DNA of 64,000 bases, taken from positions 1 to 64,000 of the forward strand of contig NZ_BCYP01000018.1 of the NCBI RefSeq assembly GCF_001598255.1. The letters run 5' to 3'. Made by a program: the position numbers and the translations under genes. Shown here piece after piece: positions 52,062 through 59,713 of the stretch. Position 1 is the stretch's first letter. The number at the start of each line of letters is the position of its first letter. The DNA comes from Mitsuaria chitosanitabida ATCC BAA-476 = NBRC 102408 (GTDB lineage Bacteria > Pseudomonadota > Gammaproteobacteria > Burkholderiales > Burkholderiaceae_C). The notes beneath the pieces are model-generated. The model searched no databases, was not told the DNA's origin, and saw only the letters and a list, made by a program, of their open reading frames with translations.

Positions 52062-53117
52062 TCAGCGGCCGCCGGGGAGCACGTCGACCCGCCAGGCGTT
52101 GCCTGCACGTGAGACTTCCAGCCGCGTGTCGAAGCGCAGGTCGAGGAAGCGTTCGATGACCGCGAAGTTGGTGCGGCTGTGCTCGGTCAGCTCGGTGCAG
52201 GTGTAGGCCGCCGGACGACCGGAGCCGGCCACCGCCAGCGCGAGCGGCAGCGCCAGTTGATCCGCCAGGTGCGGACCGACCGCGCCGGCCGAGGCTTCAT
52301 AGGCGCGCATCTCGTTCACCGCGGTGCGCGCCACTTCCTCGGACGACACGCCCCGCTCGCCGAAGGCGATGAAGACCTCGGCCACCTGCGCATGGACCAA
52401 GGTCAGCATCAACGCGTTGGCAGGGCCCTCGTTCTGACGGGCCTGTCCCAGACGCAACTGCGACTCGGCCCAGCCGGTGAGCTGCGCGACGGTCTCGAGC
52501 TCGCGCTCGGCCACGCCGCGCGGCAGCGCCGGCGCGAGCGCCTCCGCATAGGCCTCCACCGCCGCGCCGCGCTCCAGCAGCTCGAACGGGTCGAGCCCCT
52601 CGATCGCGGGCGTGATGATGGCCTCGAGCTCACCGCCCCCGGCGGGGAAGAAGCCGTGCCGGCGCAGTGTCAGGTCCAGGCCGACGCCCGCGCGCCGCAG
52701 CAGCGGCGCGAAGCTGCGCTCCAGGAAATGGAAGGGCGGCGCCATCGGGTTGTGGGTGCCGCCCGACAGCTGCAGGCGGCTGGGCGCGTCGGCCAGCATC
52801 AGCGCGGGCAGCACGGTCTGCAGCACCAGCGTGCAGCTGCCGGCGGTGCCGACCGCGAAGCGATAGTCGCCCGCATGCACCTGGCCCGGCCGGAACTCCA
52901 GCGTCCGCGATCCCAGCTCCGCGCCGATCACCGTCGCGCCGCAGACCTCCTGCGCGGCCAGCACGCAGGTCAGGTGCTGACGCATCAGCCCGGGCTTGGG
53001 GCGCCTGGCGCGGATATCGACGATGCGCAGCGGCACGCCGGTGCACATCGACAAGGCCAGCGCCGTGCGCAGGATCTGCCCGCCGCCTTCGCCTTGCGAG
53101 CCGTCCAGTTCGATCAT
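52062..53117 (-). CDS. rtcA: RNA 3'-terminal phosphate cyclase
   Basis: A 351-residue cyclase with the RtcA hallmarks: DGSQGEGGGQILRTALALS at the N-terminus, RARRPKPGLMRQHL, SGGTHNP, and near the end TELTEHSRTNFAVIERFL, whose His is the likely AMP-accepting residue. It turns RNA 3'-phosphates into 2',3'-cyclic phosphates with ATP, giving substrates for RtcB. The ATG at 53117 follows AGGGAG; in-frame ATGs at 53135 and 53144 lie upstream with poorer sites. It is the last gene of the rsr-rtcB operon, with a HEAT-like gene inserted ahead of it. Confidence 0.95.
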   Translation of the reverse strand: MIELDGSQGEGGGQILRTALALSMCTGVPLRIVDIRARRPKPGLMRQHLTCVLAAQEVCGATVIGAELGSRTLEFRPGQVHAGDYRFAVGTAGSCTLVLQTVLPALMLADAPSRLQLSGGTHNPMAPPFHFLERSFAPLLRRAGVGLDLTLRRHGFFPAGGGELEAIITPAIEGLDPFELLERGAAVEAYAEALAPALPRGVAERELETVAQLTGWAESQLRLGQARQNEGPANALMLTLVHAQVAEVFIAFGERGVSSEEVARTAVNEMRAYEASAGAVGPHLADQLALPLALAVAGSGRPAAYTCTELTEHSRTNFAVIERFLDLRFDTRLEVSRAGNAWRVDVLPGGR

Positions 53118-53245
53118 GTTCTCCCTCGTGTTCATCTCATTCATGGCGCCGCCGCGCGACATCGGCCGCGGGCGAGCGCCTCTCCTTGTTGTCCATTTCC
53201 TGTGCCTGTCGAGCCCGTCGTGCCGGGGCACGGCGCGACGGACGT

Positions 53246-54610
53246 TCAGGCGGATTCCAGCAGGCGGCTCACGATCAGCGCGAAGCTCAAGCGTCGCTGA
53301 AGGTCGGGCGGCAGCGCGGGGGCGCACGAGGCCCACTGGGCGCGAAGTCGGCCGGCCTCCGGTTCCGCGGGCGCCGAAACGCCCTGGCGCGTGGATTCGC
53401 ACCAGCGGTCGAACGCCTCCAGCAGCACGTCGGCGCCGCCTTCCGGCAGCGGCAGACGCGTCAGCTTGAGCAGCTCGCGAAGCTGGGTCCAGGTGCCCCA
53501 GTGCCGGAGCACCGTCAGCCCCCGACGCAAGGCATCGGCCCGACGATGCTCGAGCACCAGGGGCCACAGCTCGTCCGGTGTCGGGGGCGGCGCGCCGCGC
53601 CGGATCGCTTCCACCACCATCCGCTGGATGCGCGGCGAGGGTTCGGCCAGGGCCTGCCGGATCCAGCGCTGCTGCGCCTCGTCCTTGCTCGCGCTGACCA
53701 GGTGATGCAGCGCGACGGCCCGCAGCGATCCAGGAGGGCGCGCCTCGCCGGATCTCGAGAGCAGTCGCTCGCAGCGCGCGTTCATCCCGTCGGGATCGAC
53801 CGTGGCCAGGAAGAGCAGGGCGGGCACGCCGCGATGCGGCGCCGATGCCGGCGACTCGAGCTGGGCCAGCGCCCGGTCCCGGATCGTCTCCAGGCCGCCC
53901 GTCCCGCGCAAGCGTGCGATCGCGACATCGCGCACCGCAGCCCTCGGGTCGAGCGTCAGCCGCAAGGCTGTCGCCGAGCCCACCTCGGGCAACTCGTCGC
54001 AGAGACGCCGCAGCGCTTGCGCGCGCACGGGACCGTGCGCCTGATCACAGGCGAGCAGCCACAGCGCGGGCCGTGCCATCGGGCTGGCGAGGTCATCGAT
54101 CCGATGCAGGGCCCAGCGGATCGCCGCGACGTCGTGACCCGTCAGCCGTTCGGCGATCAGGCTGGCGCGCCGCTCCTCCGAGGCCGACTGCCATTCCTGC
54201 GCATCCAGCCAGCGCTGCACGAGGCGCGGCAGCGAGGCGCGCACCTCGTTCAGGTGGTCGATGCGAGATGGTGCGACCAGATAGCCGGCGATCGCCGCCA
54301 GCAGCGGGGCATGGTCGGCGCGTCGACCACGCAGCAGCTCGACGAGCGCCGGCAGCACGGTCAGCCAGGTGGGCAGCGCCGCGTCGACGAGGCAACGCCG
54401 CACCGCGCTGTCCGCGGCCGCGCGCACCTGTGGCACCCAGTCGTTCACCCGGGCGATGAGATCCGGCAGCGCCTGATGCGCGCCCAGGCGGCCGAGCGCC
54501 TTGACCGCGGCCTCGCGTTCGTGGCCGTTGTACGAGCGCAGATGAGGCAACCAGGCCTCGGCGGACAGTGCCGGCGGTCGGTCGCCGGAGAACCATTGCT
54601 TCCAATCCAT
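53246..54610 (-). CDS. HEAT-repeat-like protein inside the RNA-repair operon
   Basis: A 454-residue all-helical protein with degenerate HEAT-like repeats (EAAVKALGRLGAHQALPDLIARVNDWVPQVRAAADSAVRRCL at the front, PRIQRMVVEAIRRG and similar later). It has no catalytic motif, signal or membrane helix, so it should be a cytoplasmic scaffold or adaptor. It lies between rtcB (57 bp away) and rtcA on the same strand. E. coli and Salmonella rtc operons have no such gene, so it may be a lineage-specific partner of RtcA, RtcB or Rsr. I do not recognise a named family. Confidence 0.8.
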   Translation of the reverse strand: MDWKQWFSGDRPPALSAEAWLPHLRSYNGHEREAAVKALGRLGAHQALPDLIARVNDWVPQVRAAADSAVRRCLVDAALPTWLTVLPALVELLRGRRADHAPLLAAIAGYLVAPSRIDHLNEVRASLPRLVQRWLDAQEWQSASEERRASLIAERLTGHDVAAIRWALHRIDDLASPMARPALWLLACDQAHGPVRAQALRRLCDELPEVGSATALRLTLDPRAAVRDVAIARLRGTGGLETIRDRALAQLESPASAPHRGVPALLFLATVDPDGMNARCERLLSRSGEARPPGSLRAVALHHLVSASKDEAQQRWIRQALAEPSPRIQRMVVEAIRRGAPPPTPDELWPLVLEHRRADALRRGLTVLRHWGTWTQLRELLKLTRLPLPEGGADVLLEAFDRWCESTRQGVSAPAEPEAGRLRAQWASCAPALPPDLQRRLSFALIVSRLLESA

Positions 54611-54666: not shown

Positions 54667-55881
54667 TCAGCCCTTCACGCACACCACCTGCTTGAGCGTG
54701 TGCACGACTTCCACCAGGTCCTGCTGGGCGGCCATGACGGCGTCGATGTCCTTGTAGGCCATGGGGATCTCGTCGATCACGTCCTTGTCCTTGCGGCATT
54801 CCACGCCCTCGGTCGCGGCGCGCTGGTCCTTCAGCGTGAAGCGGCGCTTGGCCTCGGTGCGGCTCATCGTGCGGCCCGCCCCGTGCGAGCAGCTCTCGAA
54901 GCTCTCGGGATTGCCCTTGCCGCGCACGATGTAGCTGCGCGCCCCCATGCTGCCGGGGATGATCCCCATCTGGCCCTGCTTCGCGCTGACCGCGCCCTTG
55001 CGGGTCACGAACACGTCCTGGCCGAAGTGGGTCTCCTTCTGCACGTAGTTGTGGTGGCAGTTCACCGCCTCGATGTGGCTCTCGAAGCGCTTGCCGATGA
55101 CCTTCTTCGCGGCGGCGATCACGCGGCGCATCATCACCTCGCGATTGGTCTCGGCGAACTTCTGCGCCCAGCTCACCGCGCGCACGTAGTCACCGAAATA
55201 CTTCGCGCCTTCCTCGAAGTAGGCGAGGTTGGCGTCGGGCAGGTTGGCCTGATGCTGCATCGCGTCCTTCTTGGCCAGCTCGATGAACATCGTGCCGATC
55301 GCGTTGCCCACGCCGCGCGAGCCCGAATGCAGCATGAACCACACGAAGCCCAGCTCGTCCAGGCAGACCTCGATGAAGTGGTTGCCGGTGCCCAGCGTGC
55401 CCAGGTGCTTGTGGTTGTTGGTGTTCTTCAGCTTGGGGTAATCGCGGCAGAGCTCGGCGAACTCGGGCGCCAGCTCGGCCCAGGCCGCGTCGACGGCCTC
55501 GGGCGGGTTCTCCCACGCGCCCACGTCGCGGCCCTTGGGCGTGCGGCCGTGAGGCACGGCGGCCTCGATCGCCGAGCGCAGGGGCGCCAGGTTGTCGGGC
55601 AGGTCCTCGGCGCGCAGCGTGGTCTTGCAGGCCATCATGCCGCAGCCGATGTCCACGCCCACCGCGGCGGGGATGATCGCCTTCAGCGTCGGGATCACCG
55701 AGCCCACCGTCGCGCCGATGCCCACGTGGACGTCGGGCATGGCGGCCACGTGCTTGAACACGACGGGCAGCCTGGCCGCGTTGGCCAGCTGCTTGAGCGC
55801 CTCGTCCTCGACGGGCACGCCCTTCGTCCACATCTTCACCGACACACCGTCGGCGACTTCCATCTCGTTGTAGTTCTTCAT
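54667..55881 (-). CDS. rtcB: RNA ligase RtcB
   Basis: A 404-residue RtcB. It has the metal-binding VGVDIGCGMMA near residue 75, NTNNHKHLGTLGTGNHFIE, the MLHSGSRGVGN loop, NCHHNYVQKE, and the guanylylation site SHGAGRTMSRTEA with its His near residue 335. RtcB joins 2',3'-cyclic phosphate (via 3'-phosphate) ends to 5'-OH ends using GTP and Mn. It lies right after the second Y RNA, with AAAGGAAAC before its ATG. With RtcA, Rsr and RtcR it makes an RNA-repair regulon. Confidence 0.97.
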   Translation of the reverse strand: MKNYNEMEVADGVSVKMWTKGVPVEDEALKQLANAARLPVVFKHVAAMPDVHVGIGATVGSVIPTLKAIIPAAVGVDIGCGMMACKTTLRAEDLPDNLAPLRSAIEAAVPHGRTPKGRDVGAWENPPEAVDAAWAELAPEFAELCRDYPKLKNTNNHKHLGTLGTGNHFIEVCLDELGFVWFMLHSGSRGVGNAIGTMFIELAKKDAMQHQANLPDANLAYFEEGAKYFGDYVRAVSWAQKFAETNREVMMRRVIAAAKKVIGKRFESHIEAVNCHHNYVQKETHFGQDVFVTRKGAVSAKQGQMGIIPGSMGARSYIVRGKGNPESFESCSHGAGRTMSRTEAKRRFTLKDQRAATEGVECRKDKDVIDEIPMAYKDIDAVMAAQQDLVEVVHTLKQVVCVKG

Positions 55882-55919: not shown

Positions 55920-56069
55920 CCCGCGGAGAGCGATGACAAGGGGAGGTGAAACGGTTTCCTGCTCTACCGACTGAGCTACGGCCTCCCGCAGGAGACCGGT
56001 GGGATTCGAACCCACGACCCGGGCATTAACAGTGCTGTAGTTCCACCGGCATTCATCGCTCGCCGCGGG
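55920..56069 (-). ncRNA. YrlA-like Y RNA with circularly permuted tRNA-Asn-like domain
   Basis: About 150 nt between rsr and rtcB. The outer stem (56069-56063 with 55926-55920; 56060-56053 with 55936-55929) carries a variant Rsr motif, GAUGAAUG. A second stem (56047-56040 with 55952-55945) encloses a tRNA-like domain. In order: anticodon-like hairpin GCA-CUGUUAA-UGC (56035-56023, anticodon GUU), short variable part, T arm GUGGG-UUCGAAU-CCCAC (56015-55999), acceptor-like hairpin CGGUCUCC-UGCG-GGAGGCCG (55998-55979), then UA and a D arm GCUC-AGUCGGUA-GAGC (55976-55961). Every part of tRNA-Asn is present but with the 3' half first and the acceptor capped by a UGCG loop. Bacterial YrlA RNAs are known tRNA mimics; ends here are inferred from pairing. 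Confidence 0.85.
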
Positions 56070-56132: not shown

Positions 56133-56202
56133 CGCGTGGCGACCAACGGGTGACGAGGACATCGATTTTGGAGATGTAGTCCTCGCCGGCATTCGCCACG
56201 CG
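56133..56202 (-). ncRNA. Y RNA (YrlB-like) stem-loop
   Basis: About 70 nt starting 18 nt behind the rsr stop codon. A perfect 10-bp outer stem pairs 56202-56193 (CGCGUGGCGA) with 56142-56133. It includes GGCGAAUG, which fits the conserved bacterial Rsr-binding motif GNCGAA-N(0-1)-G. An internal loop follows, then a 9-bp inner stem (56087-56079 with 56060-56052) and an 18-nt loop. The layout is that of a minimal Y RNA. Comparison with the second Y RNA shows paired changes (GGCGA/UCGCC against GAUGA/UCAUC), which supports the fold. Confidence 0.8.
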
Positions 56203-56220: not shown

Positions 56221-57809
56221 TCACTGCGGATCGAGCGTCACGCCTTCGATCTCGCGGACCCAGTGGCCGGCACGAGTGTCGCCCGCGGCGAAGTCGCCGA
56301 CGATGCGGAACACCGCGTCCGAGAAGCCGCCGACGTTCAGCACGTCGTCGCGCTCCAGGGCCTGCGTCGTCGCGCCGGGCTGGATGTCGATGCACACCAG
56401 CTTGGCCTTCGGGCAGCGCGCCTTGATCGCGGACCACTGCACCATGGTCTCCGTCGCGCCGTGGCGGCGCGCATCGACCCACGATTCGTTGTCCGACACG
56501 ATCACCACCAGATCCACCGGCGCGTGTTCCTGGTTGAGCTGCTTGAGCGGCGCGCTGACCGAGGTCCCGCCTCCGCCCACCGCCGCCAGCTTGGCCGCGT
56601 TGGTCATCACCGAATCCCGCGGATTCAGCGCGACCTTCACGACCGAGTGCTCGAAAGGCATCACGCGGCAACCCGGATTCTTGCGGACCAGGGCGGCGGC
56701 CACCAGGGCGGCCACGTCGATGCAGCGCACCGTCGAGGTCGCCGTGCCGCGCCAGCCGGTCACCGACGAGGACATCGAGCCCGACACGTCCGGACAGACC
56801 ACGACCTGGCCGTCGATGGCCGGCACGTTGGACAGCGCGGCTTCCATCGCGTCCTGCAGCGCCTCGCGGATCGCCGCCGGCACGTCGGTCGCCGCGTTGA
56901 ACGCCGTCATCAGCTGATACGGCAGCACGCGGGCCGACGCCACCGCCTTCGGATCGCGCAGCAGCGCGGCCAGTCGGTCGGTCATGCCGGGACGGTCGAA
57001 CACCCCATGACGCGCGAAGGCGTTCAGGTTCTGCCGGACCATCTGCCAGGAGCCCTGTGCCGCGATGCGCGCCCAGTGGTCCCCGTTCAGCGGCAGCGCC
57101 GTCAGCATCTGGAAGGGCACGGGTGGCAGGTCGTCCGCCGTCGCGCCTTCCGTCCGGCCGGACAGCAGCGCGCGCTTGAAGCGCTCGAAGGCCAGCGTCG
57201 CCGGCGGCAGCGCCGCTTCGTCGAAGGGGCGGCCGATCAGCCACGCGAACCAGGCGGCGCGCCAGGCCTCGGCCGGCTTGGGGTGAACCATGCGGACCAC
57301 GTCCGCCAAGGTCGGCGCCGTGCCGATCGAGGCCTGCAGCAGACGCTGCTCCGATGCCGTCAGCAGCCAGTCCTGGACCAGCTTCTTCGGACGCGTGCCC
57401 AGCGACTTGCGACCGGTCTGGCCGGACCGCAGGATCTGGACGAAGTTGCGCAGCATCTTGCCGTTGTCGATCACGCGGCCGAACACCGGGCGCAGCAAGG
57501 CGATGTCGCGCTGCGCCAGCACGGCGGCCAGCAGGGCGGGCATGTCCTTCATGTGGCCGGCCTGACGGGCGTAGACCGCGGTCTTGGCCAGGAACACGGG
57601 GTCCACCTCATGCGCCAGGCTCAGCACGTCGTCGAGCTGGGTGTGTGGGCGTCGGCGTGAAAGGTCTGCGTCATGCAGCCCGTCGCCGCCAGTTGCGCCA
57701 GGCGATGGCGGGCGTCGTGGCCGTAGGCACGGGCGCCGGACTGGTTCACCGCGTTCGCGGCGGGCGCCAGCGCACCGGACGTCGTCTTGAAGAGTTGCGT
57801 GTTGACCAT
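56221..57809 (-). pseudogene. rsr: Rsr, Ro60/TROVE-domain protein, frameshifted
   Basis: The bacterial Ro60 orthologue, which binds Y RNAs and misfolded RNAs. The start at 57809 (MVNTQLFKTTSGALAPAANA, after GGGAGGAC) and the first 60 residues are in one frame, but a stop at 57621 closes it. The rest, from QLDDVLSLAHEVDP through TROVE to the von Willebrand-like domain with the MIDAS motif DVSGSM and ending VTLDPQ, is in another frame. The switch lies at CCCACACACCC (57641-57649): removing one CA restores DAHTQLDDVL. It may be a real mutation, slippage-controlled expression or a sequencing error. It is the first gene behind the sigma-54 promoter. Confidence 0.85.
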
Positions 57810-57872: not shown

Positions 57873-57888
57873 TGCAACGCCCGTGCCA
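57873..57888 (-). promoter_or_regulatory. rsr: Sigma-54 promoter of the rsr-Yrl-rtcBA operon
   Basis: TGGCACGGGCGTTGCA on the minus strand matches the -24/-12 consensus (TGGCACG-N4-TTGCA) in every key base. Transcription should start near 57862, about 50 bp before rsr. A second TGGCACG lies 12 bp upstream without its own -12. RtcR, encoded divergently, is the expected activator. Confidence 0.88.
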
Positions 57889-58069: not shown

Positions 58070-59713
58070 ATGGCCAAGAAGAACGTCGCGATCGGATACC
58101 TGGGGTCCCAGCTGGATGGCGGGATGGGCCCGGGACGTTGGGAAAAGTGGCGGCCGACGATCTCGCTGGTGTCGCAGCCGGATGTGGTCGTCCATCGGCT
58201 GGAGCTCTTCCATGCCCCGCAACACCTGGCACTCGGCCGGCTGTTGCGGGACGACATGGCCAAGCTCTCGCCCGAGACCGAGGTCAGGCTGATCGAGATG
58301 GCGGTCGAGGACCCCTGGGACTTCGGCGAGGTCTACGCCTCGCTCTACGACTGGGTGCGCAGCTACCGCTTCGATCCCTCGCGCGAGCAGTACTGGGCCC
58401 ACATCACCACCGGCACCCACGTCGCGCAGATCTGCATGTTCCTGATGGTGGAGGCGCGCTTCATCCCCGGCGTGCTGCTGCAGACCTCGCCGCCGCGCAA
58501 GTGGAAGGAGGGCGAGCCGGGCTCCATGACGCTGATCGACCTGGACCTGTCGCGCTACGACCGCATCGCGCAGCGCTTCCAGGCCGAGCGTCATGACGCC
58601 GTCACCTTCCTCAAGAGCGGCATCGCCACCCGCAACGGCCGCTTCAACGCGCTGATCGACGAGATCGAGCGCGTGGCGGTGCGTTCGCGCGCGCCCATGC
58701 TGCTGGCCGGACCGACCGGCGCGGGCAAGTCCTTCCTGGCCCGGCGCATGTTCGAGCTCAAGAAGTCCCGCCATCAGCTCGATGGCGAGTTCGTCGAGGT
58801 CAACTGCGCGACCCTGCGCGGGGACGGTGCGGCGTCGACGCTGTTCGGGCACAAGAAGGGCTCGTTCACCGGCGCGATGGCGGACCGCGCCGGCCTGCTG
58901 CGCAGTGCCGACCAGGGGCTGCTGTTCCTGGACGAGATCGGCGAGCTGGGCCTGGACGAGCAGGCCATGCTGCTCAAGGCCATCGAGGAGAAGCGCTTCC
59001 TGCCCGTGGGCGCGGACCGCGAGGTCGGCAGCGACTTCCAGCTGATCGCCGGCACCAACCGCGACCTGCGCGCGGAGGTCGCGGCGGGCCGTTTCCGCGA
59101 CGACCTGTTCGCGCGGATCAACCTCTGGACCTACAGCCTGCCCGGTCTGGCCGAGCGGCCCGAGGACATCGAGCCCAACGTCGACCACCTGCTCCAGCTC
59201 TCGGCCCGCGAGGCCGGCCGCGCGGTGCGCTTCAACGCCGAGGCCAAGGCGCGCTACCTGGGCTTCGCGCAATCGCCGAAGGCACCGTGGCGAGGCAACT
59301 TCCGCGACCTGTCGGCGTCGGTGACGCGATTGGCGACGCTGGCGGAGGGCGGCCGCATCGGCCTGCCGCTGGTGGAGGCCGAGATCGCGCGCCTGACCTG
59401 GCTGTGGTCGCGCGGGGGCGAGGCCGGCGCGGCGGGCCTCGCCACGGGCCGGGACGTCGACGACGAGGGGGACGAGGCCGAGCAGCTCCTGCTGAGCGTG
59501 CTGGATCGGGCGAGCGTCGACGCGCTGGACCTGTTCGACCGGCTCCAGCTCGCGACCGTGTTGCGGGTGTGCCGGGCCTCGCCCTCGCTGTCCGAGGCCG
59601 GCCGGCGGCTCTTCCACGTCAGCCGCCACGCGCGCAGCGTCGTCAACGACGCCGACCGCCTGCGCAAATACCTGATCAAGCACGGCCTGACCTGGGATCG
59701 CATCGCGCCGTGA
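58070..59713 (+). CDS. rtcR: RtcR, sigma-54-dependent activator with CARF domain
   Basis: A 547-residue activator. Residues 1-180 form the RtcR-type CARF domain (KKNVAIGYLGSQLDGGMGP start), thought to sense RNA fragments with cyclic-phosphate ends. Then an AAA+ domain with Walker A GPTGAGKS near residue 215, the sigma-54 contact loop GSFTGA near 265 and Walker B LLFLDEIGEL near 285. The C-terminus ends with a helix-turn-helix (VCRASPSLSEAGRRLFHVS). It is divergent from the operon it should switch on, with activator sites and a sigma-54 promoter in the 260 bp between. Confidence 0.96.
   Translation: MAKKNVAIGYLGSQLDGGMGPGRWEKWRPTISLVSQPDVVVHRLELFHAPQHLALGRLLRDDMAKLSPETEVRLIEMAVEDPWDFGEVYASLYDWVRSYRFDPSREQYWAHITTGTHVAQICMFLMVEARFIPGVLLQTSPPRKWKEGEPGSMTLIDLDLSRYDRIAQRFQAERHDAVTFLKSGIATRNGRFNALIDEIERVAVRSRAPMLLAGPTGAGKSFLARRMFELKKSRHQLDGEFVEVNCATLRGDGAASTLFGHKKGSFTGAMADRAGLLRSADQGLLFLDEIGELGLDEQAMLLKAIEEKRFLPVGADREVGSDFQLIAGTNRDLRAEVAAGRFRDDLFARINLWTYSLPGLAERPEDIEPNVDHLLQLSAREAGRAVRFNAEAKARYLGFAQSPKAPWRGNFRDLSASVTRLATLAEGGRIGLPLVEAEIARLTWLWSRGGEAGAAGLATGRDVDDEGDEAEQLLLSVLDRASVDALDLFDRLQLATVLRVCRASPSLSEAGRRLFHVSRHARSVVNDADRLRKYLIKHGLTWDRIAP

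Follow-up and report, generated by a model that had tools for sequence, protein, structure and literature searches.

A YrlA-type Y RNA of Mitsuaria chitosanitabida predicted to carry a complete, circularly permuted tRNA domain with an anticodon arm

The window analyzed here, a stretch of 64,000 nucleotides from Mitsuaria chitosanitabida, contains a gene cluster that, on the evidence of its sequence, belongs to the rsr-yrlB-yrlA-rtcB-rtcA RNA-repair operons of the RtcR/sigma-54 type. Its members are as follows.

58070-59713, plus strand: rtcR, the divergent sigma-54 activator (NF038308, 795 bits; cut-off, 650)
57874-57888, minus strand: sigma-54 -24/-12 site TGGCACGGGCGTTGC, before rsr, the sole exact match in the 64-kb window
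56221-57809, minus strand: rsr, the Ro60 orthologue (Pfam vWA_Ro60, 64.8 bits; TROVE, 23.3 against 23)
56133-56202, minus strand: YrlB-like Y RNA (weak RF02565 match of 28.1 bits, cut-off 97, E 9e-4)
55927-56059, minus strand: YrlA Y RNA with a complete, circularly permuted tRNA domain as predicted (RF02553, E 8e-16; covariance model R1, 113.5 bits)
54667-55881, minus strand: rtcB RNA ligase, starting 45 nt after the YrlA match
53246-54610, minus strand: open reading frame between rtcB and rtcA with a weak HEAT-repeat match below the Pfam cut-offs
52062-53567, minus strand: open reading frame with the RNA 3'-terminal phosphate cyclase domain of rtcA from about residue 150

The layout described for the Salmonella rsr-yrlBA-rtcBA operon in the available portion of that report (PMC9879122) is the same, with a divergent rtcR, a sigma-54 site, rsr, a yrlB-like RNA, yrlA, rtcB, and rtcA. 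In contrast to Salmonella, the window has the additional weak-HEAT reading frame between rtcB and rtcA, and its rsr is apparently frameshifted. The N-terminus of Rsr (MVNTQLF...) is encoded in a frame other than that of the TROVE part, with the shift near 57647, where a CA-rich spot (57646-57648) has 2 nt more than in three congeners. This could reflect either real decay or an assembly error. The NCBIfam Rsr model scored 60.6 and did not reach its cut-off of 900. The RNA at 56133-56202 likewise falls short of the RF02565 cut-off and is thus called YrlB-like only. With up to two mismatches allowed, the sigma-54 pattern has 48 matches in the window, compared with 68 expected. Three congeners (L212-L214) do not have the YrlB-like RNA of the window. 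Instead, about 40 nt after YrlA and before rtcB, they possess another tRNA-like Y RNA with an extra hairpin after CUACA, which is absent from the window and also occurs at L003, L006, and L021.

The YrlA match to RF02553 extends over the family model from end to end and scores 68.4 bits, 0.6 bit below the curated cut-off of 69. The score falls under the cut-off because 14 nt, agcacuguuaaugc, are inserted relative to the consensus, and these form the anticodon hairpin. Some relatives of the same architecture pass the cut-off, for instance L002 and L003 with 81.1 and 79.4 bits, and in the Rfam scan of the whole window no gathering cut-off was reached. The score of 113.5 bits with R1 was obtained with a model trained on 17 relatives from which the window was left out. 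Both sides of the Y stem, GAAUGC...GGUGGAAC and GUUUCACC...CUUGUC, are present, as are a permuted tRNA-like domain with T, acceptor, and D arms and an adjoining Ro60/Rsr gene. The first-pass annotation had called the RNA a Y RNA, and this reading is supported. The parts of the RNA are assigned as follows.

56055-56059, minus strand: outer Y stem, 5' strand, with its partner at 55930-55934
56040-56047, minus strand: inner Y stem GGUGGAAC, 5' strand, with its partner at 55945-55952
56023-56035, minus strand: upper anticodon arm GCA-CUGUUAA-UGC, tRNA positions 29-41
56028-56030, minus strand: pseudo-anticodon GUU
56021-56022, minus strand: positions 42-43 (CC) of the lower anticodon stem, pairing with 27-28 (GG) at 55958-55959
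56016-56020, minus strand: variable loop GGGUC (44-48)
55999-56015, minus strand: T arm GUGGG-UUCGAAU-CCCAC (49-65)
55979-55998, minus strand: acceptor 66-72 and 1-7, with 7 bp, an additional C-G pair, and a closing UGCG loop
55960-55978, minus strand: U8-A9, D arm GCUC-AGUCGGUA-GAGC (10-25), and A26
55958-55959, minus strand: positions 27-28 (GG)
55945-55952, minus strand: inner Y stem GUUUCACC, 3' strand

Read from its 5' end, the RNA runs from the outer Y stem through GAAUGC, the inner Y stem, and UACA into GCA (29-31) and the loop CUGUUAA. The middle consists of UGC (39-41), CC (42-43), GGGUC, the T arm, and acceptor positions 66-72 (CGGUCUC) plus C, and the 3' part of UGCG, G and acceptor positions 1-7 (GAGGCCG), U8 and A9, the D arm, A26, GG, AAACC, and the returning Y stem. 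The arms therefore occur in the order anticodon arm, T arm, acceptor, and D arm, with the acceptor strands joined by the UGCG loop, just as the first-pass annotation had read them. All four arms are of canonical length. The 17-mer of the D arm occurs once in the window, compared with 0.01 occurrences expected at up to two mismatches. The anticodon stem has its full 5 bp, since positions 29-31 pair with 39-41 and positions 27-28 with 42-43. Because the latter two pairs complete the stem, the Y stem enters at 28/29. The first-pass annotation had overlooked them and placed the break at 26/27. On the pairing, then, the Y stem appears to interrupt the anticodon stem within its 5' strand, so that two pieces of strand face one continuous strand, 39-43, and the effector domain is predicted to be a complete four-armed tRNA in circularly permuted form.

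The resemblance of YrlA to a permuted tRNA and the structure 6CU1 are already known (PMC8394870, PMC11472068). Salmonella YrlA (RF02553, PDB 6CU1) and the window RNA share the GAAUGC/CUUGUC Y stem, the D, T, and acceptor arms, the permuted order, and the position between rsr and rtcB. The window RNA differs in having the anticodon arm, with its 7-nt loop and U33, and the split 5-bp anticodon stem. In the available parts of the literature, YrlA is described with D, T, and acceptor arms only (PMC8394870), and searches on YrlA, on Y RNAs with anticodons, and on permuted bacterial tRNAs returned no description of the arm in the portions of the papers they reached, although the founding YrlA papers may mention it. 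The anticodon arm is thus an apparent addition to the known architecture, for which priority may lie with those papers. A tRNA-like domain also makes tmRNA a stable mimic of tRNA. tmRNA, which is aminoacylated, corresponds to a tRNA's upper half, according to the part of the source available (PMC3985003), while the window YrlA has all four arms and no amino-acid-accepting end.

Whether the arm pairs in relatives was examined with instances gathered from genome contigs by a DNA pattern neutral as to the anticodon letters, and the counts apply among the matches listed. There were 160 such instances, or 159 once the single viral one was removed. Among these listed matches, a gap of 22-26 was present in 91, one was skipped at a contig end, and the gap was at least 23 in 83, of which 12 had no clear D arm, leaving 71. 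The register was set from the T stem and the D arm, the latter placed by its own score, and the tested pairs were not used. Among the matches listed, 59 of 71 YrlAs form the complete set of three upper pairs, and 69 of 71 form both lower pairs. When the 5' strand is slid by 1-3 nt, pairing drops to only 0-3 of the 71 listed, and when the D-side strand is slid by 1-2 nt, to 5-7. Twelve unique instances among those listed fall short, and 10 of them keep both lower pairs. Conserved pairing of the arms in homologues had been named beforehand as the point on which the proposed arm should be judged, and this register test, made on sequences, is decisive in placing the predicted anticodon pairing beyond chance. 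By taxon, with groups assigned by hand, all five pairs are found among the matches listed in 21/21 Betaproteobacteria, 19/20 Alphaproteobacteria, 8/9 Gammaproteobacteria, 7/11 Verrucomicrobiota, 2/5 Planctomycetota, and 2/5 Acidobacteriota. Together with the anatomy of the window RNA, the relatives uphold the earlier proposal of a circularly permuted tRNA domain with a preserved anticodon arm.

The alignment A2 comprises 17 of the 23 rows of alignment A1, picked for having the arm, with the structure drawn on one A2 row. In these selected rows 97.8% of cells pair, compared with 35-45% when slid; two-sided changes occur in both anticodon helices; and RNAalifold recovers the anticodon hairpin unprompted. 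The 2-bp lower anticodon helix was not found by RNAalifold in A2. R1 was built from A2 with the window excluded.

Among 235 instances found with R1, 107 have all five anticodon pairs, nine have four, and 104 are without the arm, while 11 have no clear D arm and four no T arm. The share with the arm is biased upwards because R1 itself has the arm. In a family-level search of 200 genomes, YrlA scored above 59 bits in 19, the genome of the window included, and the principal copies of these 19 have five pairs in 18 and four in L005. In a phylum-wide sample of 397 genomes, 15 had matches of at least 74 bits and two others scored 60-62. The 13 loci from this sample (L149-L161) have the full arm in 10 and lack it in three, a share likewise biased because the search model has the arm. 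Within the genus, R1 matches 7 of 16 genomes, one of them at only 53.8 bits, a level also reached by tandem tRNA genes. Indeed, both RF02553 and R1 match tandem tRNA gene arrays at about 30-60 bits. The lower-scoring matches that were inspected proved to be tandem tRNA genes. The permuted order also arises where two such genes adjoin, which hints at an origin of YrlA without proving it. Tandem tRNA-Lys arrays, such as G000:C33:199711-199836, are among the sub-threshold RF02553 matches of the family search, and below-cut-off RF02553 matches were also obtained in 6 of 14 control genomes, including Escherichia coli and Bacillus subtilis.

The loci vary in other respects as well. In Cardiobacterium hominis (L072:6300-7039), five YrlA-like RNAs lie in a run upstream of rsr, two of which are identical at 130 of 134 positions and have the same anticodon loop. 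A Rhizobium plasmid (L208) has the order rtcR-rsr-YrlA-rtcB with an arm-bearing YrlA of 99.1 bits, and a Ro60 relative is present in 43 Rhizobium plasmid records. In two arm-free tandem paralogues, L010:1800-1936 and L012:1721-1860, the T arm is preceded by UUAA-UCCGG and the D arm is followed by CCGGA, and each resembles a tRNA whose anticodon stem has 5 bp and whose chain is opened within the anticodon loop. When two upper pairs suffice for a locus to be called arm-bearing, a slightly looser definition, 50 of the 54 arm-bearing loci with room have RtcB no more than 3 kb downstream, and 48 more lack room. Under the same definition, Ro60 lies upstream in 77 of 80 with room, with 22 lacking it. 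RtcB is also present at 20 of 22 loci whose sampled YrlAs are arm-free, so the arm does not track RtcB.

The loop of the arm is conserved at some positions and variable at others. In 85 unique arms, position 32 is a pyrimidine (C or U) in 80, U33 occurs in 79, A37 in 68, and A38 in 51. Position 34, in contrast, is G in 24, U in 21, C in 20, and A in 20, and to our knowledge A34 is almost absent from bacterial tRNAs. The same arms contain 33 different triplets, the commonest being GUU (11) and CUU (9). A tree of 100 tips, built with the loop left out, implies five changes at U33 and 44 at position 34. The latter number (0.44 per tip) is the highest among sites scored on all 100 tips, and rates as high as 0.42-0.54 changes per tip occur at linker and loop sites with 13-77 tips scored. 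As far as these sequences indicate, the fold of the anticodon loop is conserved whereas the message of the triplet is free. Two further ideas about the loop were dropped. Pair counts suggested diversifying selection on the triplet, which parsimony did not uphold. A mimicry of t6A-modified tRNA was considered as well; of the 85 arms, 36 combine U33, U36, and A37, about the expectation from the single frequencies of these bases.

The first-pass annotation had taken the anticodon loop, D arm, and T loop for those of tRNA-Asn(GUU). In a comparison with 29 distinct tRNA sequences of the host, drawn from 30 of its 53 tRNA places, the anticodon loop does match tRNA-Asn only. However, the D arm is identical to those of both tRNA-Lys(UUU) and tRNA-Asn, and the T arm, like the anticodon stem, matches none of the 29. 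Placed in tRNA order, the whole domain is closest to tRNA-Lys(UUU), with 81% identity. Among the YrlAs of the genus, GUU is found in three of six and the other three differ; of the nearest three relatives, two carry GUU and one AUU, and of two farther removed, one carries UCC and the other AUU. The Asn identity is therefore not sustained by the nearest host tRNA, by the genus, or by the 33 triplets of the wider set, and a specific tRNA-Asn mimic was rejected on the same grounds. Because the triplet is free, YrlA appears to mimic the shape of tRNA rather than tRNA-Asn.

Related elements in actinophages provide an independent case. In Gordonia phage Sixama, a permuted tRNA (L210:4694-4802, 42.6 bits) lies in a tRNA cluster after a Ro-like gene, and a blastn search with this element matched 10 phage records, among them a near-identical Gordonia group and, beyond it, three at about 78%. 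These three elements, in Gordonia phage Cashline, Mycobacterium prophage prophiGD43A-5, and Microbacterium phage SM23, precede Ro-like or RNA-binding genes. The four kinds of element, which were found by similarity to one of them and are thus examples and no census, each form 5/5 anticodon pairs with different bases, and all have U33 (CGA-AUUGGGA-UCG, CCA-AUUUGGA-UGG, CCA-CUUGUAA-UGG, and CGC-CUGUUAA-GCG). Their Y stems differ, with no GAAUGC/GAACUAC motifs of the bacterial type. Among the five phage records retrieved, three have an annotated ordinary tRNA gene that overlaps the element, and these annotations as tRNA-Leu, tRNA-Thr, and tRNA-Asn (in the set L210 and L222-L225) are probably false calls. 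Ro-like matches were found in 128 phage records. In the actinophages GiJojo (L209) and Sixama, the Ro-like gene is inside a tRNA gene cluster, and the spacer before that of GiJojo contains repeated GAUGCGUAG...UUACUUCU elements resembling further Y RNAs. Neither GiJojo L209:1124-1188 nor Brevundimonas phage L221:2163-2290 has a full arm, the lower pairs being present and the upper ones absent, and the phage matches L209:3550-3703 and L210:5077-5155 were set aside as extending over neighboring tRNA genes. A pattern scan of viral contigs gave one match, whose locus had no R1 match at E 0.001; this pattern requires a Y stem of the bacterial kind, so the actinophage elements would escape it.

Folding energies give a different picture. 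For the window RNA alone, the nearest-neighbor optimum of -52.5 kcal/mol disrupts the anticodon hairpin, and the tRNA-like structure, computed without tertiary terms, has -43.0 kcal/mol. The alternative fold is thus favored by 9.5 kcal/mol, partly via a longer outer stem, and by 3.9 kcal/mol when the inner domain is taken alone. The energy of the Sixama element is no better than that of shuffles (z -0.11).

The best explanation of the whole, given about an even chance of being correct, is that a permuted four-armed YrlA, held by Ro60, docks tRNA-handling enzymes. Ro60 (Rsr) would grip the Y stem and leave the domain free to face enzymes, to which it would show the generic shape of a tRNA, anticodon U-turn included, whatever the triplet. 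The targets would be enzymes whose hold on tRNA involves the elbow as well as the anticodon arm, and the first candidates may be RtcB and RtcA of the operon and enzymes modifying the anticodon arm, which would thereby be docked to, or gated at, the Ro60 particle. The canonical lengths of the arms, the pairing in a fixed register, the actinophage arms, the kept loop, and the neighboring RtcB and Ro60 genes argue for docking, and DusA and TruB have been reported to modify YrlA in the part of the source available (PMC8394870). However, the partner of YrlA named in the available portions of the literature is PNPase, not RtcB (PMC8394870, PMC7790460, PMC9879122). The equal presence of RtcB at arm-free loci, the energy optimum, the z value of the Sixama element, and the frameshifted rsr also count against it.

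A bait for anticodon nucleases is a doubtful but possible alternative, in which the exposed anticodon loop would divert ribonucleases from real tRNAs, the Y stem would keep the pieces together after a cut, and the nearby RtcB would reseal them. Given the permuted order, a cut would be unable to release a 5' tRNA half, the reported RtcR-activating ligand. That RtcB adjoins YrlA fits this proposal, and so do the response of the Salmonella operon to anticodon-cleaved tRNAs and an earlier suggestion that YrlA is a competitive inhibitor of the nuclease, both from the available part of one report (PMC7790460). Six loci have two strict arms each, and in five of them (L104, L111, L113, L154, and L156) the triplets differ; at L111 all three triplet bases differ although the pair is identical at 120 of 135 positions. 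The presence of the arm in phage Y RNAs makes a bait more probable. Nevertheless, position 34 changes at a rate similar to that of free linker and loop sites, which indicates no clear diversifying selection; the tandem copies of Cardiobacterium share one loop; and Salmonella YrlA was not cut (PMC7790460), although the descriptions available of that RNA are without the arm. An extended form of the bait, with a low probability, is that in many bacterial phyla, as well as in phages, Y RNAs are complete tRNAs re-threaded in the anticodon stem to serve as a reusable, signal-silent bait, which would be cut, held by the Y stem, and resealed by the neighboring RNA ligase with no RtcR-activating 5' half formed. 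That the arm is a relic is considered rather unlikely. YrlA would then have originated where two tandem tRNA genes meet, and the arm would be a structural remnant serving only to space the Y stem from the tRNA core. The matches of RF02553 and R1 to tandem tRNA arrays, whose junction already has the permuted order, and the free triplet are in keeping with such an origin. A spacer, though, would hardly need the pairing, 7-nt loop, and U33 that are kept across several phyla and in actinophages. The absence of the arm from 104 of 235 scored instances, which marks it as dispensable, also counts against a relic, and the phage result lowers the probability of a relic.

The permuted tRNA genes of algae and archaea, in which the 3' part of the tRNA precedes the 5' part, have the same order as the window YrlA, and it could be supposed that the latter is a cryptic gene of this kind maturing to a functional tRNA-Asn. 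When re-ordered, the window RNA is indeed called tRNA-Asn(gtt) by ARAGORN, as are all 107 arm-bearing instances with their own triplets. However, 84-95 of the 107 are still called when positions 27-43 are shuffled, and all 107 when arms are swapped, so these calls are not evidence for the arm. In native order, ARAGORN found no tRNA in the window or in the 107 instances, and the linear order and CCA-accepting end of a tRNA gene are absent. Unlike the algal and archaeal genes, the window YrlA has loop-closed acceptor ends, a Y stem at 28/29, and a free triplet, with no sign of maturation to tRNA. The host possesses ordinary tRNA-Asn genes, the acceptor strands are joined by a tetraloop without CCA, the acceptors of L007, L010, and L012 are cut to about 5 bp with a tetraloop, and no bacterial anticodon is known with triplets such as AUU, ACU, or AUG. 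A cryptic tRNA gene is consequently highly improbable.

If many non-enteric YrlAs and phage Y RNAs present a full tRNA, results obtained with Salmonella YrlA may not hold across the family. For example, the resistance of Salmonella YrlA to the SOS anticodon nuclease may not extend to YrlAs with the arm. The presence or absence of the arm would also provide a simple switch for testing which tRNA-handling enzyme YrlA recruits.
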